Origin: Gemmatimonas sp.
GTDB lineage: Bacteria; Gemmatimonadota; Gemmatimonadetes; Gemmatimonadales; Gemmatimonadaceae
Reading direction: 5' to 3'
NCBI GenBank assembly: GCA_011390885.1
Contig: JAABRO010000017.1
Location: 1 to 61,917 of the forward strand
DNA: 61,917 nucleotides
Part shown: positions 2,840 to 20,689 of the stretch, piece by piece
Layout: every line of letters starts with the position of its first letter
Position numbering within the stretch: position 1 is the stretch's first letter
Program-made: the position numbers and the translations under genes
The notes under the pieces: generated by a model
Databases searched by the model: none
What the model saw: the letters and a program-made list of their open reading frames with translations, nothing else
What the model was told of the DNA's origin: nothing

Positions 2840-2844
2840 CGCGG

Positions 2845-3702
2845 TCACCGCAGCCAGGCTTCGAGCGCCGTGGCCGCGTCGGTCTTCTCGTCGCGGTACT
2901 TCACGATCACCGGCGTCTGCAGGGCGATCCCCTGCTCCGCCCCCCAACCGTGCGACACGCGCCGCGCGCCCGGCACCACCACCGCGCCGGCCGGAATCTC
3001 GAGCGGGGCATCGGCCGTGGCGCGATGCACCGTTTCCTGCACGAGGTCGTACACCGGCGTCCCGCGCGTGAGGATGACGCCAGCGCCAAGCACGGCGCGC
3101 TCACGCACCACCGTGCCCTCGTACACACCGCAGTTGCCGCCCACCACCACGTCGTCCTCGACGATCACGGGCGAGGCGTTGATCGGCTCGAGCACGCCGC
3201 CGATCTGCGCGGCCGCGCTGAGATGCACCCGCGCCCCGATCTGCGCGCAGGAGCCCACGAGCGCGTGCGAATCGATCATGGTGCCGGCGCCGACATACGC
3301 GCCCACGTTCACGTACATGGGGGGCATGCACACCACACCGGGCGCGAGGTACGCGCCACGACGCACCGCCGACCCGCCCGGCACGAGGCGAATGCCGTGC
3401 TCCAACCGGAATTCGCGCACCGGATACGTGTGCTTGTCGAGGAAGTGATTGAGCCCCGCGTTCTCGGCGCCCATTTCCACGATGCGGCCCAGCCGAAAGC
3501 CGAGCAGGATACCGCGCTTGACCCACGGCACGGCGCGCCACGTGCCATCGGCATCGCGCTGCGCCGCGCGCAGTTCGCCGGCTTCGAGCTTCACGAGGAA
3601 GTGCTCGAACAGCAACTGGGCGTCGTGCTGCAGGGCGACCCCACCGTCGAGCAGGTCGGGGTGCGAGAGGCGAGCTTCGAGTTCGGACAGTGTGAACGCC
3701 AT
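2845..3702 (-). CDS. dapD: 2,3,4,5-tetrahydropyridine-2,6-dicarboxylate N-succinyltransferase
   Basis: DapD transfers succinyl from succinyl-CoA to tetrahydrodipicolinate, committing the cell to the succinylase branch of diaminopimelate and lysine synthesis. The 285-aa protein shows the family layout: a helical N-terminal region, then a left-handed beta-helix of hexapeptide repeats from about residue 115 ([38 protein letters not shown]). The C-terminal end [11 protein letters not shown] fits the family. The substrate-binding segment [13 protein letters not shown] is intact. The start at 3702 gives the usual family length. It follows dapA by 17 bp within the lysine operon. A tetrahydrodipicolinate acetyltransferase is less likely because the whole layout is DapD-like. 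Confidence 0.94.
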
Positions 3703-3719
3703 GAGATCGGTCGTGAGGG

Positions 3720-4649
3720 TCAGTCGAGCGGATCGGGGTGCCGCGAGGCGATGTCGAGCGAGGCCAGCGCCGCGCGCGCCTCGGCGAGCGCAGCGCGCAC
3801 GGGCTCGTGCAGCGACGGGGACAGCGACACGAGCGGCAACCGCAGCACATCGTGCAGCAGGCCGTCCGCCGCAAGCGCCGCCTTGGTGGGGATGGGATTC
3901 GACTCGAGAAACGCGGCCTTGAAGACCGGGCGGAGCGCCGCGTGCAGTGTGCGTGCGTGCCGCACATCGCCGCGGGCGACGGCGCGCGTGAGCGCCACCA
4001 TGGCCGACGGCAACAGGTTGGACACCACCGAGATCACACCGTCCCCGCCAAGCGCCATGAGCGGCAGCGTAAGCGCATCGTCGCCGGACAGCACGAGGAA
4101 GCCGTCCGGCCGCCCCGCGAGGATCGCGTCCACCTGGTCGAGATTGCCGGACGCCTCCTTCACGGCCACGAACCGCGCGTCCTGCGCCAGTTCGAGCACC
4201 GTGGCCGCCTCGATGTTCCCGGCGGTGCGCCCCGGCACGTTGTACAACACGATCGGCACCGCGCACGCATCAGCCACCGCGCGGAAGTGCGCGAGCAGGC
4301 CACGCTGCGGCGGCTTGTTGTACATCGGCGACACCACCAGCAGGTGCGTCGCGCCGGCGCGCACGCTGGCCTGCCCAAGCGCGATGGCGCGCGCGGTGTC
4401 GCTCGCACCGGCGCCTGCCACGACCGGCACGCGACCATTCACGACCTCGGCCACGACCTGCACGACCCGCGCATGTTCCTCGAGCGACAGCGTGGCCGCC
4501 TCACCCGTGGACCCGCAGGGCACGATGTAGTCGATGCCACCCTCCAGCTGGCGTGACACGAGGTTGCGCAGGGCGGGCTCGTCGACGGCGCCATCGGGGG
4601 TGAACGGGGTGACGAGCGCGGTGCCGCACCCGGCAAGCGTTGGGGTCAT
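3720..4649 (-). CDS. dapA: 4-hydroxy-tetrahydrodipicolinate synthase
   Basis: DapA condenses pyruvate with aspartate semialdehyde, the first committed step of lysine/diaminopimelate synthesis. The 309-aa TIM-barrel protein has the GSTGE pyruvate-binding motif at 46-50, the tyrosine of YNVPGRT near 135 and the Schiff-base lysine in FVAVKEASG near 163. All catalytic residues expected for the N-acetylneuraminate lyase/DHDPS family are visible. The start ATG at 4649 overlaps the dapB stop by 4 nt. Its place among dapB, lysC and dapD supports DHDPS rather than another aldolase of the family. Confidence 0.96.
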
Positions 4650-5368
4650 GAGGTCGGGTCTCCCGAGGCGCCCAGTCCGAGCACGTCCCGCATGGTGTAC
4701 ACGCCCGCGCGCCGAGGCGACGCGAGCCAGCGCGCGGCACCGAGTGCGCCGTCCGCGAACACGCGGCGGTCGCGTGCGGTGTGGGTGATGGTGACGCTCT
4801 CGAACGGCGCGTCGAGGACCAGCTCATGTGTGCCGGGCACGGAGCCCACGCGCACGCTGGTGACGGGAACGGAACGACCGAGCGTGCGCTCCACGCGCGC
4901 CTGCAGCGCGATGGCGGTGCCTGACGGCGCATCGAGCTTGGCGGTGTGGTGCGTCTCCACGAGGTGCGCATCGAACCCGGGAGCATGCCGGAACAGGCGC
5001 CCCGCCGCTTCGGCGAGGGCCAGCAGCAACTGCACGCCCGGCGAGAAGTTGGGCGCCCAGAGCACGCGTCCTCCCAGCGACTCCGCTTCAGCCGTGAGCT
5101 CGTCGAGGCGGTCGGTCCAGCCCGTGGTGCCGATCACGACGGGCACCCCCGCGCGCAGGCAGGCGAGGGCGTTGCCGTACGCGGCATCCGGCACCGTGAA
5201 CTCGATGGCCACGTCGGCGTTCGCGAGCGACTCGCGCGTGATGCCGCTGCGCGCGACGGCATCGACGTCGAGCCGTGACACGATCTCGCAGTCATGCTCG
5301 GCGGCGAGTGCGTCGATGGCGCGTCCCATGCGCCCCATCCCGATGAGGGCAACGCGGGTGGTCGTCAT
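4646..5368 (-). CDS. dapB: 4-hydroxy-tetrahydrodipicolinate reductase
   Basis: DapB reduces the DapA product to tetrahydrodipicolinate using NAD(P)H. The 240-aa protein opens with a Rossmann nucleotide-binding motif (IGMGRMGRA, 9-17) and contains the family signature HHTAKLDAPSGTA, which holds the catalytic histidine and lysine. It is somewhat shorter than the 265-270 aa common in proteobacteria, which is normal for several other phyla. The start and stop overlap lysC and dapA by 4 nt each, so translation is probably coupled. The acidic residue that often selects NADH over NADPH was not assessed. Confidence 0.95.
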   Translation of the reverse strand: MTTTRVALIGMGRMGRAIDALAAEHDCEIVSRLDVDAVARSGITRESLANADVAIEFTVPDAAYGNALACLRAGVPVVIGTTGWTDRLDELTAEAESLGGRVLWAPNFSPGVQLLLALAEAAGRLFRHAPGFDAHLVETHHTAKLDAPSGTAIALQARVERTLGRSVPVTSVRVGSVPGTHELVLDAPFESVTITHTARDRRVFADGALGAARWLASPRRAGVYTMRDVLGLGASGDPTS

Positions 5369-6720
5369 GCGGCCTCCGGGAAGAACGTCTCGTGCAGGCG
5401 CTGCATGGCGGGCACCACCTGCGCGTCATCCACCACGAGCGTGAAGTTGATGCCCGTGGCGCTGAGCGACGCCATGTGCACGCTGATCGGATCGATGGCG
5501 GCGAGCGCCTGCGCCATGGTCTTCGCGCCATCGGCGAGTCCCGCACCCACGATGGCCACGAGACCGCGCTGCTGCTCGATGGACACGTCGCCGAATGCGG
5601 ACAGGTCGGCGACGATCGCCTCGAGGTGCGTGGCGTCGTCGAGCGTGACCGACACCGACACTTCCGAGGTGGTCACGACATCGATGGAGGTGCGATGCCG
5701 ATCGAACACCTCGAAGACCGAGCGCAGGAAGCCGTGCGCCAGCAGCATGCGGGCCGAGCGCAGCTTCACGAGCGTGGTGTTGCGCTTGCCCGCGATCGCG
5801 CGCACCGGATGGCGCGGCGCATCGAAGGTGATCATGGTGCCCGTACCCGCCGGGCGCCGCGAGTTGAACACGTACACCGGAATGCCGCGCTGCACCGCCG
5901 GCGCGATCGTGCTCGGATGCAGCACCTTGGCGCCGAAGGCGGCCAACTCGGCCGCTTCATCGAAGCGAATGCGATCGATGAGGCGCGCCGACGGAATGAT
6001 GCGCGGATCGGCCGTGAGCATGCCGTCCACGTCGGTCCAGATCTCGATCGCGTCGGCCTCGAGCGCCGCGCCGAGCAGTGAGGCCGAGAAATCGGAGCCG
6101 CCCCGGCCCAGCGTGGTCGTCACGCCCGACGGCGTGGCTCCCACGAAGCCGCCCACCACGGGCACCACGCCGCGCATGGCCAGCGGACGCAGGTGGTCAC
6201 GCGCGGCGGCGGCGATGCGAGGAACGTCGGGCACCGCGCGCGTGAAGTGCTCGTCGGTGATCGTGACGTCGCGCGCATCGACCCACGCCGCGTCGATGCC
6301 GCGGTGCCGGAACGCCGCAGCCACGATGCGCGAGCTCAGCAGCTCACCGATGGCGGCTACGGCGTCGAGCGAACGCGGCGTGACGAAGCCGAGCGTGTTG
6401 AACGCCTCGGCGAGATGCGCGAGTTCGTCGAGACCGGCGCTCACCTCGGCTTCGATCTCGTCGCGTTCGGAGGACCCATCGAGCAGCGAGGCCACCGTCT
6501 CGAGGTGCCGCGCACGCAACGACTCCACGATGGTCACGGCGAGGAGCAGGTTGCCGCTGGCCGCGCGCTGCGCGACGTCGAGCAGGTCGTTGGTGACCCC
6601 GCCCAGCGCCGAGACCACGACCACGGGCCGGCGATCGCGCCGCGCGGTGACGATGTCGACGGCGCGCGCGATCGCCTCGGCGTTCGCGACCGAGGTGCCG
6701 CCGAACTTGCAGACGATCAT
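5365..6720 (-). CDS. lysC: Aspartate kinase
   Basis: Aspartokinase phosphorylates aspartate, entering the lysine/threonine/methionine pathway. The 451-aa protein begins with the kinase signature KFGGTS (5-10) and has the downstream GRGGSDFSASLLGAAL segment of the amino-acid-kinase fold, followed by a C-terminal pair of ACT domains from about residue 300 (TTLVKLRSARMLL, then LVAIVGAGLADG). ACT domains normally allow feedback inhibition; which amino acid acts here cannot be read from the sequence. No homoserine dehydrogenase domain is fused. It sits between asd and dapB with 4-nt overlaps on both sides, so a lysine-regulated isozyme is a reasonable inference. Confidence 0.95.
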   Translation of the reverse strand: MIVCKFGGTSVANAEAIARAVDIVTARRDRRPVVVVSALGGVTNDLLDVAQRAASGNLLLAVTIVESLRARHLETVASLLDGSSERDEIEAEVSAGLDELAHLAEAFNTLGFVTPRSLDAVAAIGELLSSRIVAAAFRHRGIDAAWVDARDVTITDEHFTRAVPDVPRIAAAARDHLRPLAMRGVVPVVGGFVGATPSGVTTTLGRGGSDFSASLLGAALEADAIEIWTDVDGMLTADPRIIPSARLIDRIRFDEAAELAAFGAKVLHPSTIAPAVQRGIPVYVFNSRRPAGTGTMITFDAPRHPVRAIAGKRNTTLVKLRSARMLLAHGFLRSVFEVFDRHRTSIDVVTTSEVSVSVTLDDATHLEAIVADLSAFGDVSIEQQRGLVAIVGAGLADGAKTMAQALAAIDPISVHMASLSATGINFTLVVDDAQVVPAMQRLHETFFPEAA

Positions 6721-7820
6721 GGCGTGCCCGGGAGCGCGCCCAGCTGCAGCGCGCCCGTCTCCCGGTGCACCACGCCACTGGCGACAAGCAGCTCGGCGTT
6801 GAGCACGGAACCGCCGGCCGCGCCGCGCACGACGTTGTGGGCCATGGCCACCAGCCGCAGGTCGAGCAGCGTATCCGCGCGCACGCGTCCCACGGTCACG
6901 CCCATGCCCCGTCCCTCCTGCACGTCGCGCCGCGGCTGGGGGCGATCCGGCTCATCGCGCACGGTGAGGGCCGACGCGGGTGCGGACGGCAGCCCTGCCA
7001 CGCCGGCGTGTCCGCGCCACGCGCGCAGCACATCGAGGGCCTCGGCCACGGAGGGCGCGCGCTCGAATCCCACGGTGAGGCACACCGTGTGCCCGTGCTC
7101 GACCGGCACGCGATTCGCGTGCGCGCTGACCGTGATGGCGGCCGGCGTGATGGTGCCGTTCGCGTAGCGCCCGAGCAACTTCCCGAGTTCGGTCTCGATC
7201 TTGGGCTCCTCGTCCCCGATGTACGGGATCACGTTGCCCAGGATGTCGAGCGAAGGCACGCCCGGGTAGCCGGCACCGGAGACGGCCTGCATGGTGACCG
7301 CCACGACCTTCGTGACCGTGAAGGCCTCGTGCAGCGGCGCGAGTGCGGCCGCGATGACGGTCGCGGCGCAGTTCGCGTTGGTGACGATGGCGCCGGCCCA
7401 GCCGCGCAGCTCCTGCTGGCGCGCGAGCAGCGCCAGGTGATCGCCGTTGACCTCCGGGATCACGAGCGGCACATCGTCGTGCATGCGGAAGTTCTTCGCG
7501 TTCGACAGCACGAGGCGCCCCGCCTGCGCGAACGCCGCCTCGACCTCGCCGGCGACACCGGAATCGAGCGCCGAGAACACGATCGGCGCGCGCACGCTGT
7601 CCGGCGTGCACGGCTGCACGACGAGCCCCGCCACGTCGGCCGGGAGCGTGCCCTCGAGCCAGCGCGCGGCGTCGCGGTACACCTTGCCCACCGAGCGCTC
7701 GGAGGCGGCGACTTCCGCGAGCACGAACCAGGGGTGATCGGCGAGCTGACGGACGAAGGCCTGACCGACGGCGCCGGTGGCGCCGAGCACCGCCACGGGA
7801 ATGCGGGAGACAGACGTCAT
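6717..7820 (-). CDS. asd: Aspartate-semialdehyde dehydrogenase, fungal/archaeal-type
   Basis: Asd reduces aspartyl phosphate to aspartate semialdehyde. The 367-aa protein has the NADP-binding GATGAVG (13-19) and the catalytic cysteine C151 in NANCAAT. The segment VTMQAVSGAGYPG followed by VIPYIGDEEPKIETE is characteristic of the fungal/archaeal subfamily rather than the classical E. coli-type enzyme; this is recognition from memory, not a search. The ATG at 7820 overlaps the upstream deacylase stop by 4 nt. The family assignment is strong, the subfamily call somewhat less so. Confidence 0.93.
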   Translation of the reverse strand: MTSVSRIPVAVLGATGAVGQAFVRQLADHPWFVLAEVAASERSVGKVYRDAARWLEGTLPADVAGLVVQPCTPDSVRAPIVFSALDSGVAGEVEAAFAQAGRLVLSNAKNFRMHDDVPLVIPEVNGDHLALLARQQELRGWAGAIVTNANCAATVIAAALAPLHEAFTVTKVVAVTMQAVSGAGYPGVPSLDILGNVIPYIGDEEPKIETELGKLLGRYANGTITPAAITVSAHANRVPVEHGHTVCLTVGFERAPSVAEALDVLRAWRGHAGVAGLPSAPASALTVRDEPDRPQPRRDVQEGRGMGVTVGRVRADTLLDLRLVAMAHNVVRGAAGGSVLNAELLVASGVVHRETGALQLGALPGTP

Positions 7821-8812
7821 GAGTCGAGCAGGGATCGGATGATGCGCGCGTACGCGGTGACGGCACCGCGCAGCTCGTCGAGGGACACGTGCTCGTCGGG
7901 GGTATGTGCGACGTGAATGGACCCCGGGCCGTACAGGAGCGGAGTCCCCCAGCGGTCGAGCAAGGGGATGTCGGAGGTGTACGCCACCGGCGCCACCTCG
8001 AAGCCGTCGATCACGTGAAAGTGCTGGGCCGGAATGAACGAACCCCACTCGAGCTCCGCGCGACCCGCGGCCCATGCCTCGAACGCGTCCTTCACCGGCT
8101 GCACATCGCCCACGAGGCGGATCATGAGCTCCGCTTCGGCGAGTCCGGGCACGATGTTGGCCTCGGTGCCGGCGCGGAGCACGCCGATGTTGCAGGTGGT
8201 CGCGCCGAGCACGGGGTCGACCGGGAGCGCGAGCGAGCGGACCTGAGGCAGCAGCTCGAGCAGCGGGTCGAGCGCGCTGCTGCCCAGCTCGGGATACGCC
8301 GAGTGCGCCTCGCGACCCCGCACGCGCACGATCACCCGCTGCGCGCCCTTGGCGCCGCTGGCGAGACGGCTCTCCGTCGGCTCACCGTTCACCAGCCAGC
8401 GGCTCGTCGCCGGGAGGCGGTTGGCCGCGCGCGCGCCGGGCGATCCCTTCTCCTCGCCCACCACGAACAGCAGGTCGACGCGCTCCTCCCCCGCCTCGGC
8501 GAGCTGCTGGGCGGCGACGAGCATGGCCGCGGCGATCCCCTTGGCGTCGCAGGCACCGCGGCCGTAGAGTCGGCCGTCGTGCAGGCGCGGCGCGATGTAC
8601 GGCGGCACCGTGTCGAGGTGGGTGGAGAGCGTGACGCCCCCGCCGGCGCGCGTCGCCCAGACGTTGCTGCGCCCGGGCTCGACTTCCTGGAGGGTGACGT
8701 TCCATCCGCGAGCGACCAGCCAGCGGGCCACCACATCGACCGCCTCGCGTTCGCGGCCGGTGGTGGAATCGATCGAGAGAAGCTCGGTAGCGAGCGCAAC
8801 GACGTCAGTCAT
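7817..8812 (-). CDS. dapE: M20-family deacylase, probable succinyl-diaminopimelate desuccinylase
   Basis: M20 dinuclear zinc amidohydrolases remove acyl groups from amino-acid intermediates. In this 331-aa protein the metal ligands are visible in THLDTVPP (H65, D67) and GRGACDAKG (D89), and E120-E121 gives the general base and a ligand. A dimerisation domain follows (REAHSAYPELGSSA), and a late HTPDEHV supplies the last histidine. It is the first gene of the lysine operon, which uses the DapD succinyl branch, so desuccinylation of N-succinyl-diaminopimelate is the likely reaction. By sequence alone an acetylornithine or N-acetyl-lysine deacetylase (ArgE/LysK-like) is possible. The start at 8812 was preferred over an upstream ATG at 8878 because homology starts there and the longer reading would enter the preceding hairpin. 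Confidence 0.8.
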   Translation of the reverse strand: MTDVVALATELLSIDSTTGREREAVDVVARWLVARGWNVTLQEVEPGRSNVWATRAGGGVTLSTHLDTVPPYIAPRLHDGRLYGRGACDAKGIAAAMLVAAQQLAEAGEERVDLLFVVGEEKGSPGARAANRLPATSRWLVNGEPTESRLASGAKGAQRVIVRVRGREAHSAYPELGSSALDPLLELLPQVRSLALPVDPVLGATTCNIGVLRAGTEANIVPGLAEAELMIRLVGDVQPVKDAFEAWAAGRAELEWGSFIPAQHFHVIDGFEVAPVAYTSDIPLLDRWGTPLLYGPGSIHVAHTPDEHVSLDELRGAVTAYARIIRSLLDS

Positions 8813-8830
8813 GACGCCAAAACTAATGCG

Positions 8831-8867
8831 AACGGGGCGCCGCGCGCTCCCGCGCGGACGCCCCGTT
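8831..8867 (-). terminator. Strong hairpin after mcr, upstream of the lysine operon
   Basis: The minus strand can form a 9-bp plus 7-bp GC stem separated by a single bulged T, with a GGAG loop (AACGGGGCG outer arm, CCGCGCG inner arm). It lies 18 bp past the mcr stop, where termination of the pcs-mcr transcript would be expected. There is no proper U-tract, only ATTAGTTTT some 7 nt beyond the stem, so it may work with Rho or mainly as a 3'-end stabiliser. The promoter of the lysine operon must lie in the same 72-bp gap. Confidence 0.6.
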
Positions 8868-8884
8868 TCCCCCGCCAACGGGCC

Positions 8885-11800
8885 TCAGACGGTGATGGCC
8901 AACCCGCGGTAGATGCGGGCCCGGTAGCGACTGTCTTCCTGCGACACGATGGGCGCGCTGGCGAGCAGCACGGCGTGCGCGAAGCGTTCCTGCTCCTCCG
9001 ACTGCTCCCGTGTGTCACGCGGCTCTTCCGACCGCACGCGCCGCGTGAGGTTGATCTGGTTGACCGGGACGTTGTGGACCAGCCGCTCGTTCTCCACGCC
9101 GAGGGTGGCCGTGAGGGCGTGCAGCGTGGTCTTCACGAAGTTGGCGAGCGCGAACTCCGCGTGCGTGGGATGCACGGGCACGTCCGGGGAGACGAGTACG
9201 AGGCGCACGTCGTCGAAGAGCGACACCTTGCGCGCCACCCGGAAGTGATGCGTGAGGTGCGCCTCCACGAGCTCCGCGAAACCGGCCGCGTCCAGCGCCG
9301 GCGTGCCGTCTTCGCGGAAGATGTCGTGCGGCAGGGGCGTGAAGGGCGTGGACACCACCGCTGCCGGCGGCCCGCCGATGCGCAACGCCTCGTCCATCGC
9401 ACCTTCGAGGTCGTCGCCCACCGCGATGCTGTGAATGCGCTCGTTGCCGAGCACGATGCGCAGCAGGTCCTTGATCTGCTCCGCCGCGCCCTCCGTGCGG
9501 GTGAGCAGCATCACGCGCCCCACGTGGCTCTGTTCGAGCGCGAGGCGAGCCGCACGCGCCAGGTGCGACACGAGGTTTTCGCCGACGAGCCAGATGGTCT
9601 GCTCGCGCATGCGCGCGACACGCTCCGGCCTTGCGCGCCCGAACAGCTCGCGCTCGGTGATCGTGCGTTCCTGGTGCAGACCGCCCGACGGCTGGAAGGT
9701 CTCGCCGGACACGGCGCGGTCGGCCAGGAAGTACACGGTGGCGAGCGCCACCTCGAGCTCGCTCGGCATGTTGCGCAGGTGGAGCATGCCGAGCACGCCC
9801 TTCCGGATCTTGGCCGCCTCGCGCAGGATCTCCTCCCGTGCGTGGAAGGGCTCGGGCGGTTCGGGGAGCGCCAGCACCCACGCCTCGTCGAACTGCGCGC
9901 CAGCATCCGCGAGGGGGAGGAAGCGACCGCCAAGCCGCAGCCGCGCCACGAGGCGCTGGGCGATCGCGCGCGTCATGACGAACTGCCCACTGGTGGCTTC
10001 CGAGTCGGCGGCCAGCGACTCGGCGCGCACGGACTCGGCGAACTTCCGGATCGCGGCCGGCGTGTGTTCGCCCGTGGCGATCGCGTCGAGGTCGTTGGAG
10101 GCGAGCAGCTGGAGCAGGCCCTCCACCTCGGCGCCCTGGCGCAGCGCCTCGACCACGGCACGATAGATGGCGTTGAGCCGACGGTTCTCGAGAATGAGCC
10201 GGCCGCGCCGCTCGAAGAGGCCGGGCTTGCCGCCCACGCCACGCAGGCGGTCGCCATCCACGGGGCCGGGCGCGATGGCGTTGACCTGGATCTCGGGACC
10301 GACGAAGCGCGCGAGGTTTTCGGTGAGCGCGCGCTGGCCGGCCTTGGACACCGCATAGTCGGCGCGGTTGGGGTACGGCACCGCGATGTACTTCTCGCCG
10401 CCGAAGTACGAGGAGACGTTGAGGATGTAGCCGCTCCCCTGCCGCTTCATGATCGGCACGACCTTCTCGATGAGCGAGTAGTTCGAGACGAGGTTGGCGT
10501 TGAGCGTGTTCCGCCAGTCGTCGACGGACATGTCGACGACCATCTGCTCCGCTCCGGCCACACCGGCGTTGTTCACGAGGTAGTCGATGCGGCCGAACGC
10601 CTGCAGCGTCTCGTCCACGGCCCGACGCAGGCCGGCCTCGTCGGCGACGTCCACGCCGGCGACGACCTGCACGCGATCGGCCGCGTCGTGGTAGCCGATG
10701 TCCTCCAACTCCCGCGCGATCTCCGCGCGCATCTCCTCGAGCTGGTCCGCACGACGTGCCACCAGCATCACGCGGGCGCCGCCGATCGCGAGCAGGCGGG
10801 CGAGCTGGCCCCCGATGCCCGCCGAGCCGCCGGTGATGAGCACCGCCTTGCCGAGATGCAGCCCCATCACGCTCTCCTGCCAGCCGAAGATGGCGCGACG
10901 CGATCCCGTCGCGCGCATGATCGAGAGCGGCAAGTACAGGTTGACCTGGCGAATGCGACGCTTGGTGTACAGCAGGCGCGCAGCCTGCCCCGCGGCGAAC
11001 GGCACCTCTTCCGGCTCGCGGTTGCCCCAGCGGATGATCTGGTTCGACCACTCCTCGAATCGGCGCTCGCCCGCCCCCTGCTGCACCTCGGTCTCGTCGC
11101 GCCAGACGCGGCAGAGTTCCTCCACCGCCGCGCGCAACACGTCGGCGTAGGTGTTGCCCTGCTCGTCGGAACCGTTCGAGATGAACACCACGCTGGGCGC
11201 CGCGCGGAGCGACTCCTCGACCTCCTTCCAGAACACCGTCAGCGCACGCGCCAGCAGCATCGCGCCCGCCAGCTCGCCGTCAAGGAAGGTGGCCACGTCG
11301 GCGTCTGATGCCTCGGTGAATCGCCCGCGAAACCGCCACGCGCCGAACGCCGGCATGATGATCGCGCCATGGACCACGTCGCCCTTCTGCCGAAGGTCGG
11401 CGAACACGGCATCGACCGTCTCGGGACGCATGCGGTCGAGCAGCACGGGCGTGATGCGCGCGTCGGACGGATCGACACCGAGTGCTTCGATCGCCGCGCT
11501 GACGCCCTCCTCCGAGCCCAGTCCGAGCACGACCTCGGCACCACACCCCGCCTGCACGCGCGCCACGGTGAGCGCATCGCGCACCTGGTCGCCGGCGGCC
11601 AGCAGCAGCCGCACGCCCGTGCCGTCCACGGTGCGCAGTTCCGGCCGCGACACGAACGTGCTGCGCGACTCCTGCCGCACCTGCATGCCATGCGTGACTT
11701 CGAAGTGATGCCCGTTGTACGCGCCGGACTCGTCACTGGCGAGGAACACGATCGTGCCGGCGACGTCCTGCACGGTGGGAAACGTGCGCGCCGGCGCCTC

Positions 11801-12589
11801 GCCCTCGAACGAGCGGGCCAGCGTCATGAGATCGAACATCTCGCCCGCGGTCGTGCCATCGTCGGCCTTGCGCAGCTTGTCCATGGCGGAGAAGACGGTC
11901 CGGATGCGCTCCGAGCGGATCGGCCCCGGGAACACCGTGTTCACGCGAATGCCGGCGCTGCCGAGCTCGGCGGCGAGCTGCCGGGAGAAGGCGTTGAGGG
12001 CAGCCTTGGGGACCACGTACGCGGCGCGCCCGTAGTACTGGGTGCGGGAGAAGATCGTGGACACGTTGATGATGCTGCTGCCCGGCGCGAGGTGCGGCGC
12101 GACCGCACGCGCGAAGTTCCACGCAATGCCGAACAGGCTGCGCGCGGCGGCCCCCACGGTCTCCCGCTCGTGAATTCCGACCTCGGCGAGCGCCTCGAGT
12201 TCGGCGGCCGTGAACGGCACATCGCGCAGTCGGCACTTGGGACCCGCCGAGCCCGCGTTGTTCACCAGCACGTCGATGCGTCCGCACTTCGCCAGCACCT
12301 GCTCCACGGCGAGCCGCACCTGCCCCGGCTCTGCGCCGTCGGCCGCCACCGTCACGATGCGGTTGGCGGGAACGCGCAGCTCCTCCCGCAGCGCGGCACG
12401 CGCGGCGTCAAGTCGCGAAAGGTCGCGACCCGTCATGACGAGCGTGGCCCCCTCACGCAGCACGGAACGCGAGATCTCGGTGCCGATGTTGCCAGCGGCC
12501 CCAGTGAGCAGTACCACCTTGCCGGCGAGCCGGCCACGCGCGGTACGGCGACGATCGGCAGTCGTTCCTTCCAGCTCTTCGCTCATCAT
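8885..12589 (-). CDS. mcr: Bifunctional malonyl-CoA reductase (malonyl-CoA to 3-hydroxypropionate)
   Basis: This 1234-aa protein matches, over its full length and in my memory of the family, the bifunctional malonyl-CoA reductase of the 3-hydroxypropionate bi-cycle. It contains two extended short-chain-dehydrogenase halves. The N-half has TGAAGNIG (29-36) and the YVVPK catalytic pair (about Y190/K194) and would reduce malonate semialdehyde to 3-hydroxypropionate. The C-half, from about residue 575, has ITGGSAGIGG (about 583-592) and YAVSK (about 744-748) and would reduce malonyl-CoA to malonate semialdehyde with CoA release. The C-terminal end ARIYRGLAITV is nearly the same as in Chloroflexus. 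No catalytic residue is lost. It starts at ATGATGA, overlapping the pcs stop, so it is co-translated with pcs. The pathway role is inferred from that pairing. Confidence 0.93.
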   Translation of the reverse strand: MMSEELEGTTADRRRTARGRLAGKVVLLTGAAGNIGTEISRSVLREGATLVMTGRDLSRLDAARAALREELRVPANRIVTVAADGAEPGQVRLAVEQVLAKCGRIDVLVNNAGSAGPKCRLRDVPFTAAELEALAEVGIHERETVGAAARSLFGIAWNFARAVAPHLAPGSSIINVSTIFSRTQYYGRAAYVVPKAALNAFSRQLAAELGSAGIRVNTVFPGPIRSERIRTVFSAMDKLRKADDGTTAGEMFDLMTLARSFEGEAPARTFPTVQDVAGTIVFLASDESGAYNGHHFEVTHGMQVRQESRSTFVSRPELRTVDGTGVRLLLAAGDQVRDALTVARVQAGCGAEVVLGLGSEEGVSAAIEALGVDPSDARITPVLLDRMRPETVDAVFADLRQKGDVVHGAIIMPAFGAWRFRGRFTEASDADVATFLDGELAGAMLLARALTVFWKEVEESLRAAPSVVFISNGSDEQGNTYADVLRAAVEELCRVWRDETEVQQGAGERRFEEWSNQIIRWGNREPEEVPFAAGQAARLLYTKRRIRQVNLYLPLSIMRATGSRRAIFGWQESVMGLHLGKAVLITGGSAGIGGQLARLLAIGGARVMLVARRADQLEEMRAEIARELEDIGYHDAADRVQVVAGVDVADEAGLRRAVDETLQAFGRIDYLVNNAGVAGAEQMVVDMSVDDWRNTLNANLVSNYSLIEKVVPIMKRQGSGYILNVSSYFGGEKYIAVPYPNRADYAVSKAGQRALTENLARFVGPEIQVNAIAPGPVDGDRLRGVGGKPGLFERRGRLILENRRLNAIYRAVVEALRQGAEVEGLLQLLASNDLDAIATGEHTPAAIRKFAESVRAESLAADSEATSGQFVMTRAIAQRLVARLRLGGRFLPLADAGAQFDEAWVLALPEPPEPFHAREEILREAAKIRKGVLGMLHLRNMPSELEVALATVYFLADRAVSGETFQPSGGLHQERTITERELFGRARPERVARMREQTIWLVGENLVSHLARAARLALEQSHVGRVMLLTRTEGAAEQIKDLLRIVLGNERIHSIAVGDDLEGAMDEALRIGGPPAAVVSTPFTPLPHDIFREDGTPALDAAGFAELVEAHLTHHFRVARKVSLFDDVRLVLVSPDVPVHPTHAEFALANFVKTTLHALTATLGVENERLVHNVPVNQINLTRRVRSEEPRDTREQSEEQERFAHAVLLASAPIVSQEDSRYRARIYRGLAITV

Positions 12590-15500
12590 GCGGTCCCGGC
12601 CGACCAGGCCTCATAGAGTTCGTCACGGGAGCGCAGCCCCGTGCGTGGCAGCGCGTGGTTCACGACGTACGTCGCGCCAGCGTGCCGGTTCTCCCACATG
12701 GCCTGGTGCGCCTCGGGGAGTTGATCCCACGCCACGACTGTCGGCGTCGTGACGTCGAGTTGCCCGGCTGCCAGCATCTGGTTCATGCGCACGACTTCGT
12801 ACGCGTTGCAGAGGTGGGTGCCGAGAATGCTGCAGGTGGGCAGCAGGATGCGACGCTGCCGCATCCACACCTGCGGCGCGTAGAAGCTGTAGCGGCGCCC
12901 GCGCATGTCTTCGGCGTACACGACGCGGCCCGAGAACGGCTGCACGAGCGCGGTGGATGCAGCCAGCGCATCGTGTGCGGCGCGTTCGATGATCAGGTCC
13001 GGCGCGCCGCGCGGATTGTCGGACGAGCGGAGCAGCTTGCCTACTGCCTGTCCGAGCGGCTTGATCGTGCGCTCCTGGAAGGCGCGCACCGCCTCCTTGA
13101 ATGCCGGCCCGTCGCGGCGCACGTCCGGAAGCGGTGGCATGGAGTCGGGCCATTCGAAGTCGACCGAAGCGCGGCGCTGCAGTTCACTCAGCGCGACCAC
13201 GCCGGCAAGCTGGTCGCCGAAGCCGAGCGAGCGCACGAACTCGCGCTGGGCGTCGCTGTAGCAGACCACGGCGATACGCGCCCCACGCGCCGCGGCGGCC
13301 TCGATCGCCTCGATGCCCACCGGGTCGACCAGCGCGTCGGCGTCGAGCCCCGGGCCGTAGTACACGAGCACCGATTCACCGGCGCGCAGCTGCGCCCGCT
13401 CCAGCATCGTGGCGACCGGCACGGCACCCGGCTTGCCCGCGAAGGTGAAGTGATAGCCCGAGGAGGCGCCGTAGAAGGCGAGCGCGCCGCCGTCGGCCAG
13501 CAGCTGCATGCTCCGCGGGAACGACCGTTCACCCGCGTGCGACACCACGTAATCGGCGAGTCGGCCATCGTGCTGCGCCCGGAACGCCTCGAGCAACGGC
13601 TCGCCTGCGCGCTCCCACGCGGCGATTGCCTCCGGCGTGTCGGGCACCATGGTGAAGCAGTCGGCGAGGGCGGGCGCCTTGCGGTTGATCGCACCCGTCG
13701 CGCCGTACGCCGCGATGGCGCGGGCGCGCTCCTCGCTGGACACGAGGCCGGTGACGCGCACGCCGTTGGCGACCGCCGTCTTGAGCGCTTCGAGCCCGGT
13801 GCCAGTCGCCGCGCCCTCCACGAACATGGTGCGACCGCCCTCGATCTGCAGCGTGGTGAACAGGGCGCGCACCACGGTGCCGAGGTTGAGGATGTACGAG
13901 CCGGCCGCCTCGAGCGACACGTCGGGCGGCAGTGCATGACACTGCGGCGCCTGCACGAGGAGAAACTGCTGGTGGCTCCCCTCGAATGTCTCGTAGCCCT
14001 GAATGCGAAAGTCGGCCGCCATCGGATCGCGCCCCGCGAGCGGCGAGAGCAGCGCGCTCTGCCCGGAGTAGATCGTGACGAGGTCGCCCACGCGCAGGCG
14101 CCCCTCCTGCTTGGCGGCGGCGCCCAGCGCGGCCACCAGCCCGACACCTCCGGAGCCCGTCACCTGCACGTCGCGATCGTGCGAATCGAACGGAGAGACC
14201 GGAATGCCCGTGATGGCCCAGATGTCGTTGAAGTTGACCTCCGAGGCGAGCACGTAGAGCAGCACATCGTTGGCGCCCGGCGTCTCGACCGGCACGACGA
14301 CCTGCTGCTCCACGTCCTTCGGCTCGCCGTGGCGCGGCGCGCCCGTGTCGGGATCCTTGATGACACCCTGACCGTACTGCCACGCGGGGATCGGCGTGAG
14401 CCCCGGGAAGAAGGGCGCGCCGATCGGCAACAGGTCGCCGCGCCGTTCGTACTCCGCGGCCTGCTCGCCGTCCACGATCGCGCCGCGACGCACCGGCAGC
14501 GGCGCGCTACGCCGATCGAAGAACGCGCGGATGCCCGCCTTGCCGCCCTCGGGATCGACGATGGCCTCGGCGAAGAGCCGCGCCTCGCGGGACAGCCCCG
14601 CAGGCAGCCCCTGCTCCCACCCCGTGCGCACCGCCTCGACCACACGCGCGGCCGGCACGACGCGGCCCACGCGTTCGGCCTGCGCGATGACCCGCGCGAC
14701 GGGCTCGAGCGCGAGCGCCTGATCGATGGCGAGGGCGCCCGGACGCTCCCACGCCGCGCGACGCGCGCGCACCTGCGCGAAGGACCGTCCGAGCCGACTG
14801 TCGGCACCCTGCGCCACGAACTCGCGCACGAGTCGTGCCGCATGCGCGACCACATCCTCCGCGTCGTCGACGAGTTCGTCCACGAGGCCGATCGCGTGCG
14901 CTTCGTCGGCCTCGACGGTGCGCCCGCCGACGAGCAGTTCGATGGCCTGCACCATCCCTTCCATGCCGTCGCGGTCGGCGAGCAGACGCGTGAGCCGCTG
15001 CGTGCCGCCATATCCCGGGAGCAGGTTGAGCCGGATCTCCGGCTGGCCGAAGGCGGCCGTGCGCTCCGCGAGGCGGACGTGGCAGGCGAGGGCGAACTCC
15101 ATGCCACCGCCAAGGGCCACGCCGTTGATGGCCGCGAGGCACGGCTTGTCCATGCGCTCGATCGTGCGGAACGCGAGGTGCGCCACGTTCGGGAGCGTGA
15201 TCGCTTCCTCGATGGTGTGCACATCCTCGAGCAACTGGCGGATGTCCGCACCCGCCACGAACGACGACGTGCCATCGCCGGTGAAGATCACCGCGACCAC
15301 ATCGTCGCGGCGCGCGAGATGCTCCACCACGGTGACGAGCTCGTCGAGCGAGCGCTCGTTGAGCGCGTTCACCGGCGGGTTCGTGATGGTGACCAGCGCG
15401 AGGCGCACCGCGCGATCGCCATCGTGCCCCACCGGGTGGTACTGCACGCGGAAGTAGCGCCCATGTTCGAGGATGCGCTGCTCCTCGCGCACGCGCTGTC

Positions 15501-18063
15501 GCGCCTTCCAGTCACCGATCACGCGCGCAAGCTCGGGCACGCACTCGGGATTGCGCAGCGTGCTGATGTCCCCGATGTCCTGTTCCTCGACGAGCGCGCG
15601 CACCAGGCGCCGCACGTACTTGCCGCTGCGCGTCTCCGGAAACGCGGGCACCTCGAGGAAGTCTTCGGGCACGGCCACCGCGCCCTTCTCCTGGCGCACC
15701 AGCTCGAGCAGGCGGCGGCGATCATCGGCGGTGAGGCGCTGCCCGGCGGCCGGCGTGATGAACGCGAGCGGCGTGAGCCCCTTCTCGCGATGGGGCGCCC
15801 CGACCACGATCACGTTGCCCACGGGCGAGTCGGCGTTGAGCTGCTTGTCGCGCAGGATGGCGCCCTCGATCTCCTCCGTGCCCATGCGATGGCCGGACAC
15901 GTTGATCACGTCGTCGCTGCGCCCGTGCAGCGAGAAGCCGCCGTCGGGGTAGCGCACGGCGAAGTCGCCCTGCGTGTAGGCCCACGTGCCCTGCCATCGG
16001 CTCCAGTAGGTGCTGCGGTAGCGCGCGAAGTCGCCACGCCATTGGGGCACGACGGCGCCGTCCTGCACGGCGAAGTGCTCCACGTCACCCCAGATCGTGC
16101 GCGCGAGATACGGATACGGCGCGCGGATCACGATCTCGCCCTTCTCGTCGCCCTCGGCCTGCCGTGCGGGCACGCGCCCGTCGGCATCCGGTGCGCCATC
16201 GGGCACCCACACGTCGCCCATGACCCAGGGCAACGGGTACGTGTGCGCATCGGCCCGCAGCGGAAACTCGCCGTTGCCGTAGAAGTGCGTCCACACGATG
16301 CCGCCGTGTTCGGTGGCCCAGTACGAGTTGATGTACCAGGGACACATGAGATCCATGCCGAACTGCTGCACGGACGGCGAGACGGGCTCCGCGCAGAAGG
16401 TCGCCACGCGCAGCGACGAGAGGTCGTACCGGCGCACGTCCTCCGCGTTCTGCGGGTCCTGCATCACCGTCTTGAGGAAGGTGACGCCCGCCTTGAAGAT
16501 CTTCACGCCGTAGCGCTCGATGATCGACGCGAACCGGCCCGCCGACGGGAACACCGGCGCACCCTCGGCGAGCACGCTCGTCACGCGCGTGGTGAGCGCG
16601 GCGGAGAGCATGTAGCTCTGCCCGGTGATCCACCCCGGATCGGCCACCACGTACATCACATCGCCCGGCTCGGCGTCGAAGCTGACGCGCATCGTGTGCG
16701 CCACGCCGGCGCACCAGCCACCGTGCACGTGCACCACGCCCTTGGGCTTGCCGGTGGAGCCGGAGGTGTAGATGAAGAACAGCGGGAACTCCGCATCGAC
16801 GGGCACCGGCGGCACCACCGACCAGATCACGCGCACGAGCTCGAGGTCGGGCAACGCGCGAAGCGCGGCCTCGTCGTGCACGGCGAACCCGGCTGTGCGT
16901 GCGGCGTCGAGGAGCTGCTCGAGCGCCGGCGTGAGGAGATCGTCCGCCCACACGTCGCGCCCGGTGCGCCATGGCACATCGGCCTGCGCGGTGTGGCGCA
17001 CGACCACGACGCGCTCCACCGCACTGCCGGCATCGACGAGCGCGCGCGCGACGGCGGTGCGCACGCGGCCCGCGTCGGCGGCGTCGAGCGCGCCCGCTTC
17101 GGTCAGGGCGCCAAGGGCGCGCCCCACGCCGCGCATGGCGTCGCGCCGCTCCACCGTGATCTCGCCCGCGACAGCGGCGGCGGCCGCGTCGGCGATCTGC
17201 GCGGCGTGCGCCGCATCGATGCCAAGGCGGCCGAGCGTGTCCCGCACGACGGCGACGGCACGATCGGCGGGGAGGTACAGATCGAGCGCCGGATCGGTGT
17301 ACGCCGCCTTGAACGGCACGATCTGCGCGTTGCGCCAGCCACCGTCGGCCGTGATGACGACGCGCGCGCCGGCGTCGTGAATGCGATCGGCGAGCGTCTT
17401 GTCGGAGAAGCCACCGAAGACGGGGGTGTAGATGATGCCCAACCGCTTGGCGGCTTCGGTCCACGCCACCTGCGCCGGGATGTTGGGCAGGTTGAGTGCG
17501 ATGCGGTCCCCAATGCCAAGCCCCAGCGCGCGCAGGGCGAGCGCGGCCTTGGCCACGTCCACGAGCAGTGCCTTGCGCGAGATCGGATACGCCACGACCG
17601 GCGCCCCACGTCCCTCGCCGCGTGACTGGTCCCAGCGATCGCCCTCGACGAGAAACGCCGGTTCCTCGCCGTGCCCCGCGAGCACGTGACGATCCACTTC
17701 GTTGAACGCGGCGTTGGTGCGCGCGCCCGCGAACCAGCGGTAGAACGGCGCGTCGGTCGGATCGAAGGCGCGATCCCACGGCATCCACGACGGCGACGGC
17801 GCGTGCTCGACCGGCGCGAGCGAGCCGGCGTCCCAGCCGCGCCACGCCCCGTCGTCGTGCCGAGTGACCCACGCGCCCGCGCCGCCGAGGCCGGGAACGA
17901 ACCAGTGGAGGGTGCGGGCGGCGATGTCGCCGTGGTACGCGCCGGGGTCGGCGTCGCAGGCGGTTCGCGCCGCCTCCCAGTCCGCGCGTGTGCGCAGAGG
18001 GTTGATCCGTGCCGGCGGCGGCGTGACCGCCACCGAATGTGCCGTGCCGTCAGTCGCTGCCAC
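12586..18063 (-). CDS. pcs: Trifunctional propionyl-CoA synthase (3-hydroxypropionate to propionyl-CoA)
   Basis: At 1825 aa this is close to the 1822 aa of Chloroflexus propionyl-CoA synthase. Three domains are read in order. (1) An AMP-forming acyl-CoA synthetase, about 40-860, with the P-loop YTSGSTGKPKG near 432, YWATEHGG, GRSDDVINVSGHR near 709 and the adenylation lysine of SGKYVRR near 816. (2) A crotonase dehydratase, about 890-1160, with oxyanion segment FVAGADIRQ near 926 and both usual acid/base glutamates, in GGGMEFALA and FGQPEI. (3) A medium-chain enoyl reductase, about 1230-1810, with VNFNDIWAITG and the nucleotide site EGAATGTGLEAL near 1412. The enzyme activates 3-hydroxypropionate, dehydrates it to acrylyl-CoA and reduces that with NADPH inside one reaction chamber. 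Translation starts at GTG with AAGGAG 5 nt upstream. It is first in the operon with mcr. Confidence 0.95.
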   Translation of the reverse strand: MAATDGTAHSVAVTPPPARINPLRTRADWEAARTACDADPGAYHGDIAARTLHWFVPGLGGAGAWVTRHDDGAWRGWDAGSLAPVEHAPSPSWMPWDRAFDPTDAPFYRWFAGARTNAAFNEVDRHVLAGHGEEPAFLVEGDRWDQSRGEGRGAPVVAYPISRKALLVDVAKAALALRALGLGIGDRIALNLPNIPAQVAWTEAAKRLGIIYTPVFGGFSDKTLADRIHDAGARVVITADGGWRNAQIVPFKAAYTDPALDLYLPADRAVAVVRDTLGRLGIDAAHAAQIADAAAAAVAGEITVERRDAMRGVGRALGALTEAGALDAADAGRVRTAVARALVDAGSAVERVVVVRHTAQADVPWRTGRDVWADDLLTPALEQLLDAARTAGFAVHDEAALRALPDLELVRVIWSVVPPVPVDAEFPLFFIYTSGSTGKPKGVVHVHGGWCAGVAHTMRVSFDAEPGDVMYVVADPGWITGQSYMLSAALTTRVTSVLAEGAPVFPSAGRFASIIERYGVKIFKAGVTFLKTVMQDPQNAEDVRRYDLSSLRVATFCAEPVSPSVQQFGMDLMCPWYINSYWATEHGGIVWTHFYGNGEFPLRADAHTYPLPWVMGDVWVPDGAPDADGRVPARQAEGDEKGEIVIRAPYPYLARTIWGDVEHFAVQDGAVVPQWRGDFARYRSTYWSRWQGTWAYTQGDFAVRYPDGGFSLHGRSDDVINVSGHRMGTEEIEGAILRDKQLNADSPVGNVIVVGAPHREKGLTPLAFITPAAGQRLTADDRRRLLELVRQEKGAVAVPEDFLEVPAFPETRSGKYVRRLVRALVEEQDIGDISTLRNPECVPELARVIGDWKARQRVREEQRILEHGRYFRVQYHPVGHDGDRAVRLALVTITNPPVNALNERSLDELVTVVEHLARRDDVVAVIFTGDGTSSFVAGADIRQLLEDVHTIEEAITLPNVAHLAFRTIERMDKPCLAAINGVALGGGMEFALACHVRLAERTAAFGQPEIRLNLLPGYGGTQRLTRLLADRDGMEGMVQAIELLVGGRTVEADEAHAIGLVDELVDDAEDVVAHAARLVREFVAQGADSRLGRSFAQVRARRAAWERPGALAIDQALALEPVARVIAQAERVGRVVPAARVVEAVRTGWEQGLPAGLSREARLFAEAIVDPEGGKAGIRAFFDRRSAPLPVRRGAIVDGEQAAEYERRGDLLPIGAPFFPGLTPIPAWQYGQGVIKDPDTGAPRHGEPKDVEQQVVVPVETPGANDVLLYVLASEVNFNDIWAITGIPVSPFDSHDRDVQVTGSGGVGLVAALGAAAKQEGRLRVGDLVTIYSGQSALLSPLAGRDPMAADFRIQGYETFEGSHQQFLLVQAPQCHALPPDVSLEAAGSYILNLGTVVRALFTTLQIEGGRTMFVEGAATGTGLEALKTAVANGVRVTGLVSSEERARAIAAYGATGAINRKAPALADCFTMVPDTPEAIAAWERAGEPLLEAFRAQHDGRLADYVVSHAGERSFPRSMQLLADGGALAFYGASSGYHFTFAGKPGAVPVATMLERAQLRAGESVLVYYGPGLDADALVDPVGIEAIEAAAARGARIAVVCYSDAQREFVRSLGFGDQLAGVVALSELQRRASVDFEWPDSMPPLPDVRRDGPAFKEAVRAFQERTIKPLGQAVGKLLRSSDNPRGAPDLIIERAAHDALAASTALVQPFSGRVVYAEDMRGRRYSFYAPQVWMRQRRILLPTCSILGTHLCNAYEVVRMNQMLAAGQLDVTTPTVVAWDQLPEAHQAMWENRHAGATYVVNHALPRTGLRSRDELYEAWSAGTA

Positions 18064-18449: not shown

Positions 18450-18472
18450 ACCGAACTCCTGCTGGTGGTGAG

Positions 18473-18556
18473 TGCCCGGAGCGGGACTCGAACCCGCACC
18501 CCCTTGCGGGAAGGGGCTTTTAAGGCCCCCGCGTCTACCGGTTTCGCCATCCGGGC
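18473..18556 (-). tRNA. tRNA-Leu (anticodon UAA)
   Basis: An 84-nt class II tRNA is read on the minus strand. The acceptor stem GCCCGGA pairs with TCCGGGC, discriminator A. A GGGGC/GCCCC anticodon stem encloses the loop CTTAAAA, giving anticodon UAA. A long variable arm (CTTCCC-GCAA-GGGG) and the T-arm GCGGGTTCGAGTCCCGC are present. The CCA end is not encoded and must be added enzymatically. Confidence 0.96.
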
Positions 18557-18649
18557 CACCGAAAACGCGAAGGGAGCGGCACCTGCCCGCTCCCCCGTCC
18601 TGCTCCGACCTGAACTTGTGTGCCGACGGCGTCGGCGACCCCATAACAG

Positions 18650-18722
18650 AGCGGGAAACGGGACTCGAACCCGCGACCCCAACCTTGGCAAGGTTGTGCT
18701 CTACCAACTGAGCTATTCCCGC
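18650..18722 (-). tRNA. tRNA-Gly (anticodon GCC)
   Basis: A 73-nt class I tRNA on the minus strand. GCGGGAA pairs with TTCCCGC, discriminator T(U). The D-arm has AGCTCAGTTGGTAGAGC; the anticodon stem CAACC/GGTTG encloses TTGCCAA, anticodon GCC; the T-arm carries GGTTCGAGTCC. CCA is not encoded. It lies 93 bp upstream of tRNA-Leu in the same direction, so the two may be co-transcribed. Confidence 0.97.
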
Positions 18723-20569: not shown

Positions 20570-20620
20570 GGACACGGAACTCCCGAGGGCGCGACCCGCT
20601 ATCAGACGAGATCGCGCGCG

Positions 20621-20649
20621 TTGACGCTGGAAGAGGGACGGGCTAAGCT
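20621..20649 (+). promoter_or_regulatory. Predicted sigma-70 promoter for the gene at 20690
   Basis: TTGACG (20621-20626) and TAAGCT (20644-20649) are separated by 17 bp. Predicted transcription start is near 20656, leaving a leader of about 34 nt before the GTG. The spacing is ideal; the -10 hexamer is only a moderate match. Confidence 0.5.
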
Positions 20650-20689
20650 CGATCGAATCTAGCCGTCCCGCGCCACCCCTGCGGCCCGC

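Follow-up and report, generated by a model that had tools for sequence, protein, structure and literature searches.

The Gemmatimonadaceae bacterium analyzed here carries a near-complete gene set for the 3-hydroxypropionate bi-cycle together with genes of a type II reaction centre. We propose, with a probability of about 0.72, that this organism may be a phototroph that assimilates or co-assimilates CO2 with the assistance of light through the bi-cycle, and without the Calvin cycle. The proposal is built on the genes themselves, their intactness, their co-occurrence with phototrophy and the purifying selection acting on them. The window, by which we mean the whole stretch of 61,917 nucleotides that was analyzed, belongs to a 4.07-Mb MAG (62 contigs, 95% complete) of the Gemmatimonadaceae, which confirms the phylum, Gemmatimonadota, suggested for the host in a preliminary description. 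The features relevant to this work, all encoded on the minus strand, are the following.

863..8878, minus strand: lysine/DAP and aromatic genes, downstream of mcr and co-oriented with it (M20 peptidase of the DapE/ArgE-like type, asd, lysC, dapB, dapA, dapD, aroA-cmk)
8885..12589, minus strand: mcr, bifunctional malonyl-CoA reductase (1234 aa, ATG start; full-length matches to 8hi4 and 8hjw)
8888..10909, minus strand: Mcr C-terminal half, malonyl-CoA reductase, an SDR pair (6k8s match, residues 559-1234)
10910..12535, minus strand: Mcr N-terminal half, malonate semialdehyde reductase, an SDR pair (6k8v match, residues 17-567)
12586..12589, minus strand: ATGA overlap of the pcs stop and the mcr start, both ORFs open
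12586..18063, minus strand: pcs, encoding an 1825-aa trifunctional propionyl-CoA synthase from a GTG start (aligns with PDB 6eqo over its full length)
12634..14406, minus strand: Pcs enoyl-CoA reductase domain, acryloyl-CoA reductase step (PF00107; crotonyl-CoA carboxylase/reductase-like, 4gi2 match at 1220-1542)
14494..15417, minus strand: Pcs enoyl-CoA hydratase domain, 3-hydroxypropionyl-CoA dehydratase step (PF00378, residues about 883-1190)
15529..17781, minus strand: Pcs CoA-ligase domain of the acetyl/propionyl-CoA synthetase type (PF16177, PF00501, PF13193, residues about 95-845)
18472..18556, minus strand: tRNA-Leu(UAA), upstream of pcs, position conserved
18649..18722, minus strand: tRNA-Gly(GCC), upstream of pcs, position conserved

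The naming of the two enzymes as Pcs and Mcr in the preliminary description was borne out by end-to-end matches to solved structures. Residues 26-1823 of Pcs align to 6eqo (2478 bits, E=0), the first 970 residues being about 62% identical; we take 6eqo to be the propionyl-CoA synthase of Erythrobacter NAP1. Pcs is a single chain in which CoA ligase, enoyl-CoA hydratase and enoyl-CoA reductase follow one another, as expected for a trifunctional Pcs (about 1800 aa). Mcr is covered over its full length by 8hi4 and 8hjw, and in its two halves by 6k8v and 6k8s (E=0 to 1e-170), entries that presumably represent enzymes from Chloroflexota and Porphyrobacter. Its C-terminal half is 56-59% identical to solved malonyl-CoA reductase structures, and the single chain carries its SDR-type units in two catalytic halves, as in the chloroflexal type (about 1220 aa). 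The catalytic motifs are intact, as had been claimed: the SDR sets are undamaged in both halves of Mcr (TGAAGNIG at 29 and YVVPK at 191; TGGSAGIG at 586 and YAVSK at 745), and so are the ligase and hydratase motifs of Pcs (YTSGSTGKPKG at 432, SGKYVRR at 813, GGGMEFAL at 985). Compared with the nearest relative, pcs and mcr evolve at a dN/dS of about 0.1, indicating purifying selection. Chance is excluded as the origin of these matches, and both enzymes fall squarely within known families. Fatty-acid or polyketide-type proteins were ruled out, since over the full length both chains match Pcs and Mcr best.

The two genes do lie back to back, overlapping at 12589-12586; the interval 12586-18063 previously given for the pair holds pcs, while mcr falls outside it. 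In most relatives the ATGA overlap is possible; L019 and L021 lack it. It suggests coupled synthesis of Pcs and Mcr and nothing more. The further idea that the Mcr product is handed to Pcs as a unit found no support, as the overlap is absent from those two relatives and 3-hydroxypropionate is a free intermediate. A scan for promoters and terminators gave nothing above shuffled sequences.

The remaining genes of the bi-cycle were found elsewhere in the genome. Contig C7 carries a cluster (L053:8125-14958) in which meh is divergent to smtA-smtB-mct-mcl-mch, encoding three family III CoA transferases, an HpcH/HpaI lyase and a MaoC/mesaconyl-CoA-hydratase-like protein. By homology these include a putative succinyl-CoA:malate CoA transferase, malyl-CoA lyase and mesaconyl-C1-CoA hydratase, with predicted substrates. 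The third CoA transferase, the mct candidate, reaches 472 bits in two pieces against TIGR04253 (cut-off 725) because a run of N, an assembly gap, interrupts the gene; the full-length versions in the congeners G184, G217 and G243 reach 658-688 bits, likewise under this strict cut-off. The meh candidate encodes 293 aa with a weak FAS1_DH match, and its divergent position next to smtA is conserved in relatives. The MAG also contains accA and accD for acetyl-CoA carboxylase, two copies of the methylmalonyl-CoA mutase gene (mcm), and a pccB-like gene, named by family resemblance only, adjoining a biotin carboxylase gene. In the stretches read around the mcm and pccB genes, no methylmalonyl-CoA epimerase was found. 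The genome search proposed in the preliminary description (acc, pcc, mcm, mcl/mch, mct and meh) returned homologues, with the mct call interrupted by the gap and the meh call made from position and a weak domain, and the bi-cycle was kept as the candidate role of pcs-mcr, given the second-cycle cluster and the carboxylase and mutase genes. In another genome, G319 (L096), meh<>smtA-smtB-mct-mcl-mch-pcs-mcr forms one contiguous run, whereas the genus of the window has two loci.

Phototrophy genes had been described as absent. This holds for the window and not for the genome, where contig C22 starts within pufL, continues with pufM, and also carries acsF, bchM, bchH, bchB, bchN, bchP and ppsR. 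From these genes, the host is predicted to be an anoxygenic phototroph with a type II reaction centre. No phosphoribulokinase was found in the MAG (95% complete), its sole PF00485 protein being a uridine kinase. Of RuBisCO there is one homologue; with 209 bits, where the form III cut-off is 497, it is best called a RuBisCO-like protein. This protein (L062:1000-2346) is nearest to the 3-oxo-isoapionate-4-phosphate decarboxylase OiaX, far under the OiaX cut-off. The Calvin cycle was ruled out as the carbon route of the MAG, which has neither phosphoribulokinase nor a true RuBisCO.

Our model, in which enzyme activities, direction of flux and any autotrophy are predicted from the genes, would run as follows. 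Mcr would reduce malonyl-CoA to 3-hydroxypropionate using four electrons from NADPH. Pcs would activate 3-hydroxypropionate with CoA and ATP, dehydrate it and reduce it with NADPH to propionyl-CoA. These two enzymes would form the characteristic middle of the bi-cycle, with acetyl-CoA and propionyl-CoA carboxylases and methylmalonyl-CoA mutase as their partners. The second cycle (meh, smtA, smtB, mct, mcl, mch) would convert glyoxylate and propionyl-CoA to pyruvate and acetyl-CoA. Light energy would support the fixation of bicarbonate or, more probably in nature, the co-assimilation of CO2 with small organic acids.

Next, Mcr, the type II reaction centre and mct were each searched in the same 395 Gemmatimonadota genomes. 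Mcr is present in 16 of them and the reaction centre in 44, with 13 carrying both. The reaction centre thus occurs in 13/16 Mcr genomes (Fisher p = 3e-11, a significance inflated by kinship among genomes), and, counted by genus, in 8/9 mcr genera against 6/129 others (p = 1e-8). As related genomes are not independent, such p-values overstate the association, and the count by genus is the safer one. All 12 genomes with mct lie within the mcr-positive set, and 11 of these 12 are puf-positive; mcr occurs with no detected mct in G150, G331, G336 and G352. The single contig of G074 (5.18 Mb) holds mcr, the mct cluster and puf. Among proteobacterial MAGs with a close Mcr (Rhodocyclaceae, Steroidobacteraceae and other Gammaproteobacteria), 7/7 tested are puf-positive. 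Three mcr-positive Gemmatimonadota have no detected reaction centre (G123, 94% complete; G331, 93%; G352, 85%); light is therefore no strict requirement. One of them, G123 of the Gemmatimonadaceae (L098, L099), has pcs, mcr, mct, mcl, mch and meh as well as the dap linkage, with no reaction-centre gene found; either phototrophy was lost there or this is a non-phototrophic bi-cycle. The link between mcr and phototrophy is therefore strong, not absolute.

Other occurrences of Mcr were also seen. In five Chlorobiota MAGs (L026, L027, L028, L032, L033), Mcr is also bifunctional and about 1220 aa long, with 46-47% identity to that of the window, and the flanks read contain no pcs. The Rhodocyclaceae MAG L020 carries mch-mcl-smtB-smtA, mct, mcr and biotin carboxylase side by side, a compact bi-cycle cluster whose flanks, as read, contain no pcs. 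No plasmid-borne Mcr was found at E<=1e-100.

The pcs-mcr pair has long been kept at one locus and has been exchanged with Proteobacteria. The order 1063-aa protein - tRNA-Gly - tRNA-Leu - pcs - mcr - M20 - asd - lysC - dapB - dapA also occurs in L013, L014, L015, L019 and G074, and the section from pcs-mcr to the dap genes occurs additionally in L024/L098 and L031. The M20 gene lies close behind mcr in g1 and g4; in the genera g17 and g24, about 2 kb separate the two. The divergence of mcr and pcs is similar to that of lysC and asd, which speaks for their vertical descent at this site among the Gemmatimonadaceae. The 1063-aa protein beside the tRNA genes (18785-21976 in the window) is conserved in Gemmatimonadaceae at 61-70% identity and has no Pfam or NCBIfam match.

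This conserved linkage bears on one alternative, in which Mcr and Pcs would serve the neighbouring lysine/DAP operon or some other biosynthetic pathway, perhaps one with 3-hydroxypropionate as its product, and the M20-asd-lysC-dap linkage would be functional. The co-orientation of pcs-mcr-M20-asd-lysC-dapB-dapA, conserved in at least four genera, and the divergence of mcr in step with lysC and asd would fit such a role. We nevertheless consider it very unlikely: pcs-mcr occurs without the dap genes in relatives with another arrangement (L016, L017, L034 and L102, and also all of the Proteobacteria), the dap genes have no need of propionyl-CoA, and the presence of pcs-mcr follows the reaction-centre and mct genes. 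No metabolic reason for the linkage is apparent, relatives with pcs-mcr elsewhere lacking it, and the lysine/DAP and aromatic block is a conserved genomic neighbour outside the pathway. Slightly less credible still is an artefact of binning, by which contigs for phototrophy, for 3-hydroxypropionate and from Gemmatimonadota would stem from different organisms. The MAG is indeed in 62 contigs, with pufL cut at a contig end and N within mct; however, pcs-mcr is joined to housekeeping genes within the window itself, the neighbours being the same as in other Gemmatimonadaceae, and all findings are repeated in three congeners. Moreover, the single-contig genome with Mcr, the mct cluster and the reaction centre makes a binning error unlikely.

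A much closer contender, to which we give even odds, is a module for assimilation and redox balance that consumes NADPH and takes up acetate, glycolate, propionate or 3-hydroxypropionate with some CO2, a role suggested for Erythrobacter/Porphyrobacter and for Actinobacteriota whose sets are incomplete. It overlaps the co-assimilation half of our preferred explanation and differs from it by denying net autotrophy. Porphyrobacter ULC335 and NAP1 have the key enzymes but lack the full cycle, and CO2 co-assimilation has been suggested for them (PMC10674011); the four Gemmatimonadota genomes with mcr and no detected mct agree with this, and the family III CoA transferases and mcl could act in glyoxylate salvage. 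Against it, the MAG and its genus carry the second-cycle cluster and both the carboxylase and mutase steps, beyond the sets described for those organisms. These genes are consistent with light-assisted CO2 (co-)assimilation through the bi-cycle as the leading reading.

The trees of both proteins indicate how the pathway may have moved. In the Mcr tree, soda-lake Gammaproteobacteria (L018, L022, L030) and a second proteobacterial group (L020, L021, L035) take two places among Gemmatimonadota; both groups recur in the Pcs tree. Holding the Gemmatimonadota together in the Mcr tree was rejected (AU p = 0.002), as was holding the Proteobacteria together (AU p = 0.001), although these groups were named after a first tree, which weakens the tests. 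Mcr of the Gemmatimonadaceae genus g19 is sister to that of Porphyrobacter, and the position of G288 Mcr and Pcs is unsure because of a long branch. Since the seven proteobacterial MAGs tested are all puf-positive and their Mcr nests among Gemmatimonadota, transfer between phototrophs is indicated. With two nested proteobacterial groups and a conserved Gemmatimonadaceae locus, the simplest reading would be transfer from Gemmatimonadota to Gammaproteobacteria, a direction that we infer from the trees and the locus. A bolder combination, with Gemmatimonadaceae of this lineage as photoautotrophs or obligate photomixotrophs with a complete bi-cycle and Gemmatimonadota as donors to phototrophic Gammaproteobacteria, is offered tentatively, as we rate it somewhat below an even chance. 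Transfer would then have tied light harvesting to the bi-cycle across phyla.

The system most resembles the bi-cycle of Chloroflexus aurantiacus and Roseiflexus, which share the bifunctional Mcr, the trifunctional Pcs, the smtA-smtB-mct-mcl-mch-meh set and a type II reaction centre. These belong to another phylum, however, and Mcr of the MAG clades with Proteobacteria, not Chloroflexota. In Chloroflexus, mcr and pcs lie apart, as the preliminary description stated (Caur_2614 and Caur_0613; PMC3150298), while Roseiflexus RS-1 has them in an apparent operon, there with acc (PMC5459899), so the operon is not new in itself. Erythrobacter NAP1 and Porphyrobacter have the same Pcs and Mcr architecture (57-62% identity) and are aerobic anoxygenic phototrophs, but Porphyrobacter ULC335 was described without a full fixation pathway, whereas the MAG also encodes the second cycle; the alphaproteobacterial homologues are thought to serve CO2 co-assimilation, not full autotrophy (PMC10674011). 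Nor is occurrence outside Chloroflexi a novelty, as a 2022 survey reported all bi-cycle genes in two Gemmatimonadales MAGs, of the same phylum and order as ours, and the bi-cycle in Burkholderiales MAGs (PMC9802188); inorganic electron donors were suggested there, and the link to phototrophy was not drawn. The soda-lake Gemmatimonadota Ge1 are candidate photoautotrophs of the same phylum that have RuBisCO form IC and phosphoribulokinase (PMC6748926), both missing from the MAG; the literature we found holds only such RuBisCO-using candidates. For phototrophic Gemmatimonadota from lakes, a photoheterotrophic life and no genes for carbon fixation were reported (PMC8547001). A survey of the whole phylum treats RuBisCO and leaves hydroxypropionate unmentioned (PMC10581226). 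Papers on cryoconite, the Challenger Deep and phototrophic Myxococcota report no bi-cycle in phototrophic Gemmatimonadota, and in the open-access literature we found no report joining the two in this phylum. Occurrence of the enzymes in the phylum and mcr-pcs adjacency in Roseiflexus were therefore already known. New are the pairing of a near-complete bi-cycle with a reaction centre in a lineage of Gemmatimonadaceae, which recurs across several genera and in a genome of one contig, its sharing with phototrophic Proteobacteria by transfer, and the history of the locus.

If our proposal is true, the host feeds partly on CO2 using light, by a route not known for its phylum. A bi-cycle tied to a reaction centre would give Gemmatimonadota a second route beside RuBisCO, one that surveys restricted to RuBisCO would overlook. 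The question of its origin would become testable, because the locus of tRNA-Gly, tRNA-Leu, pcs, mcr and dap genes is kept in several genera, and the bi-cycle in phototrophic Gemmatimonadota would show that the pathway spread by transfer among phototrophs.
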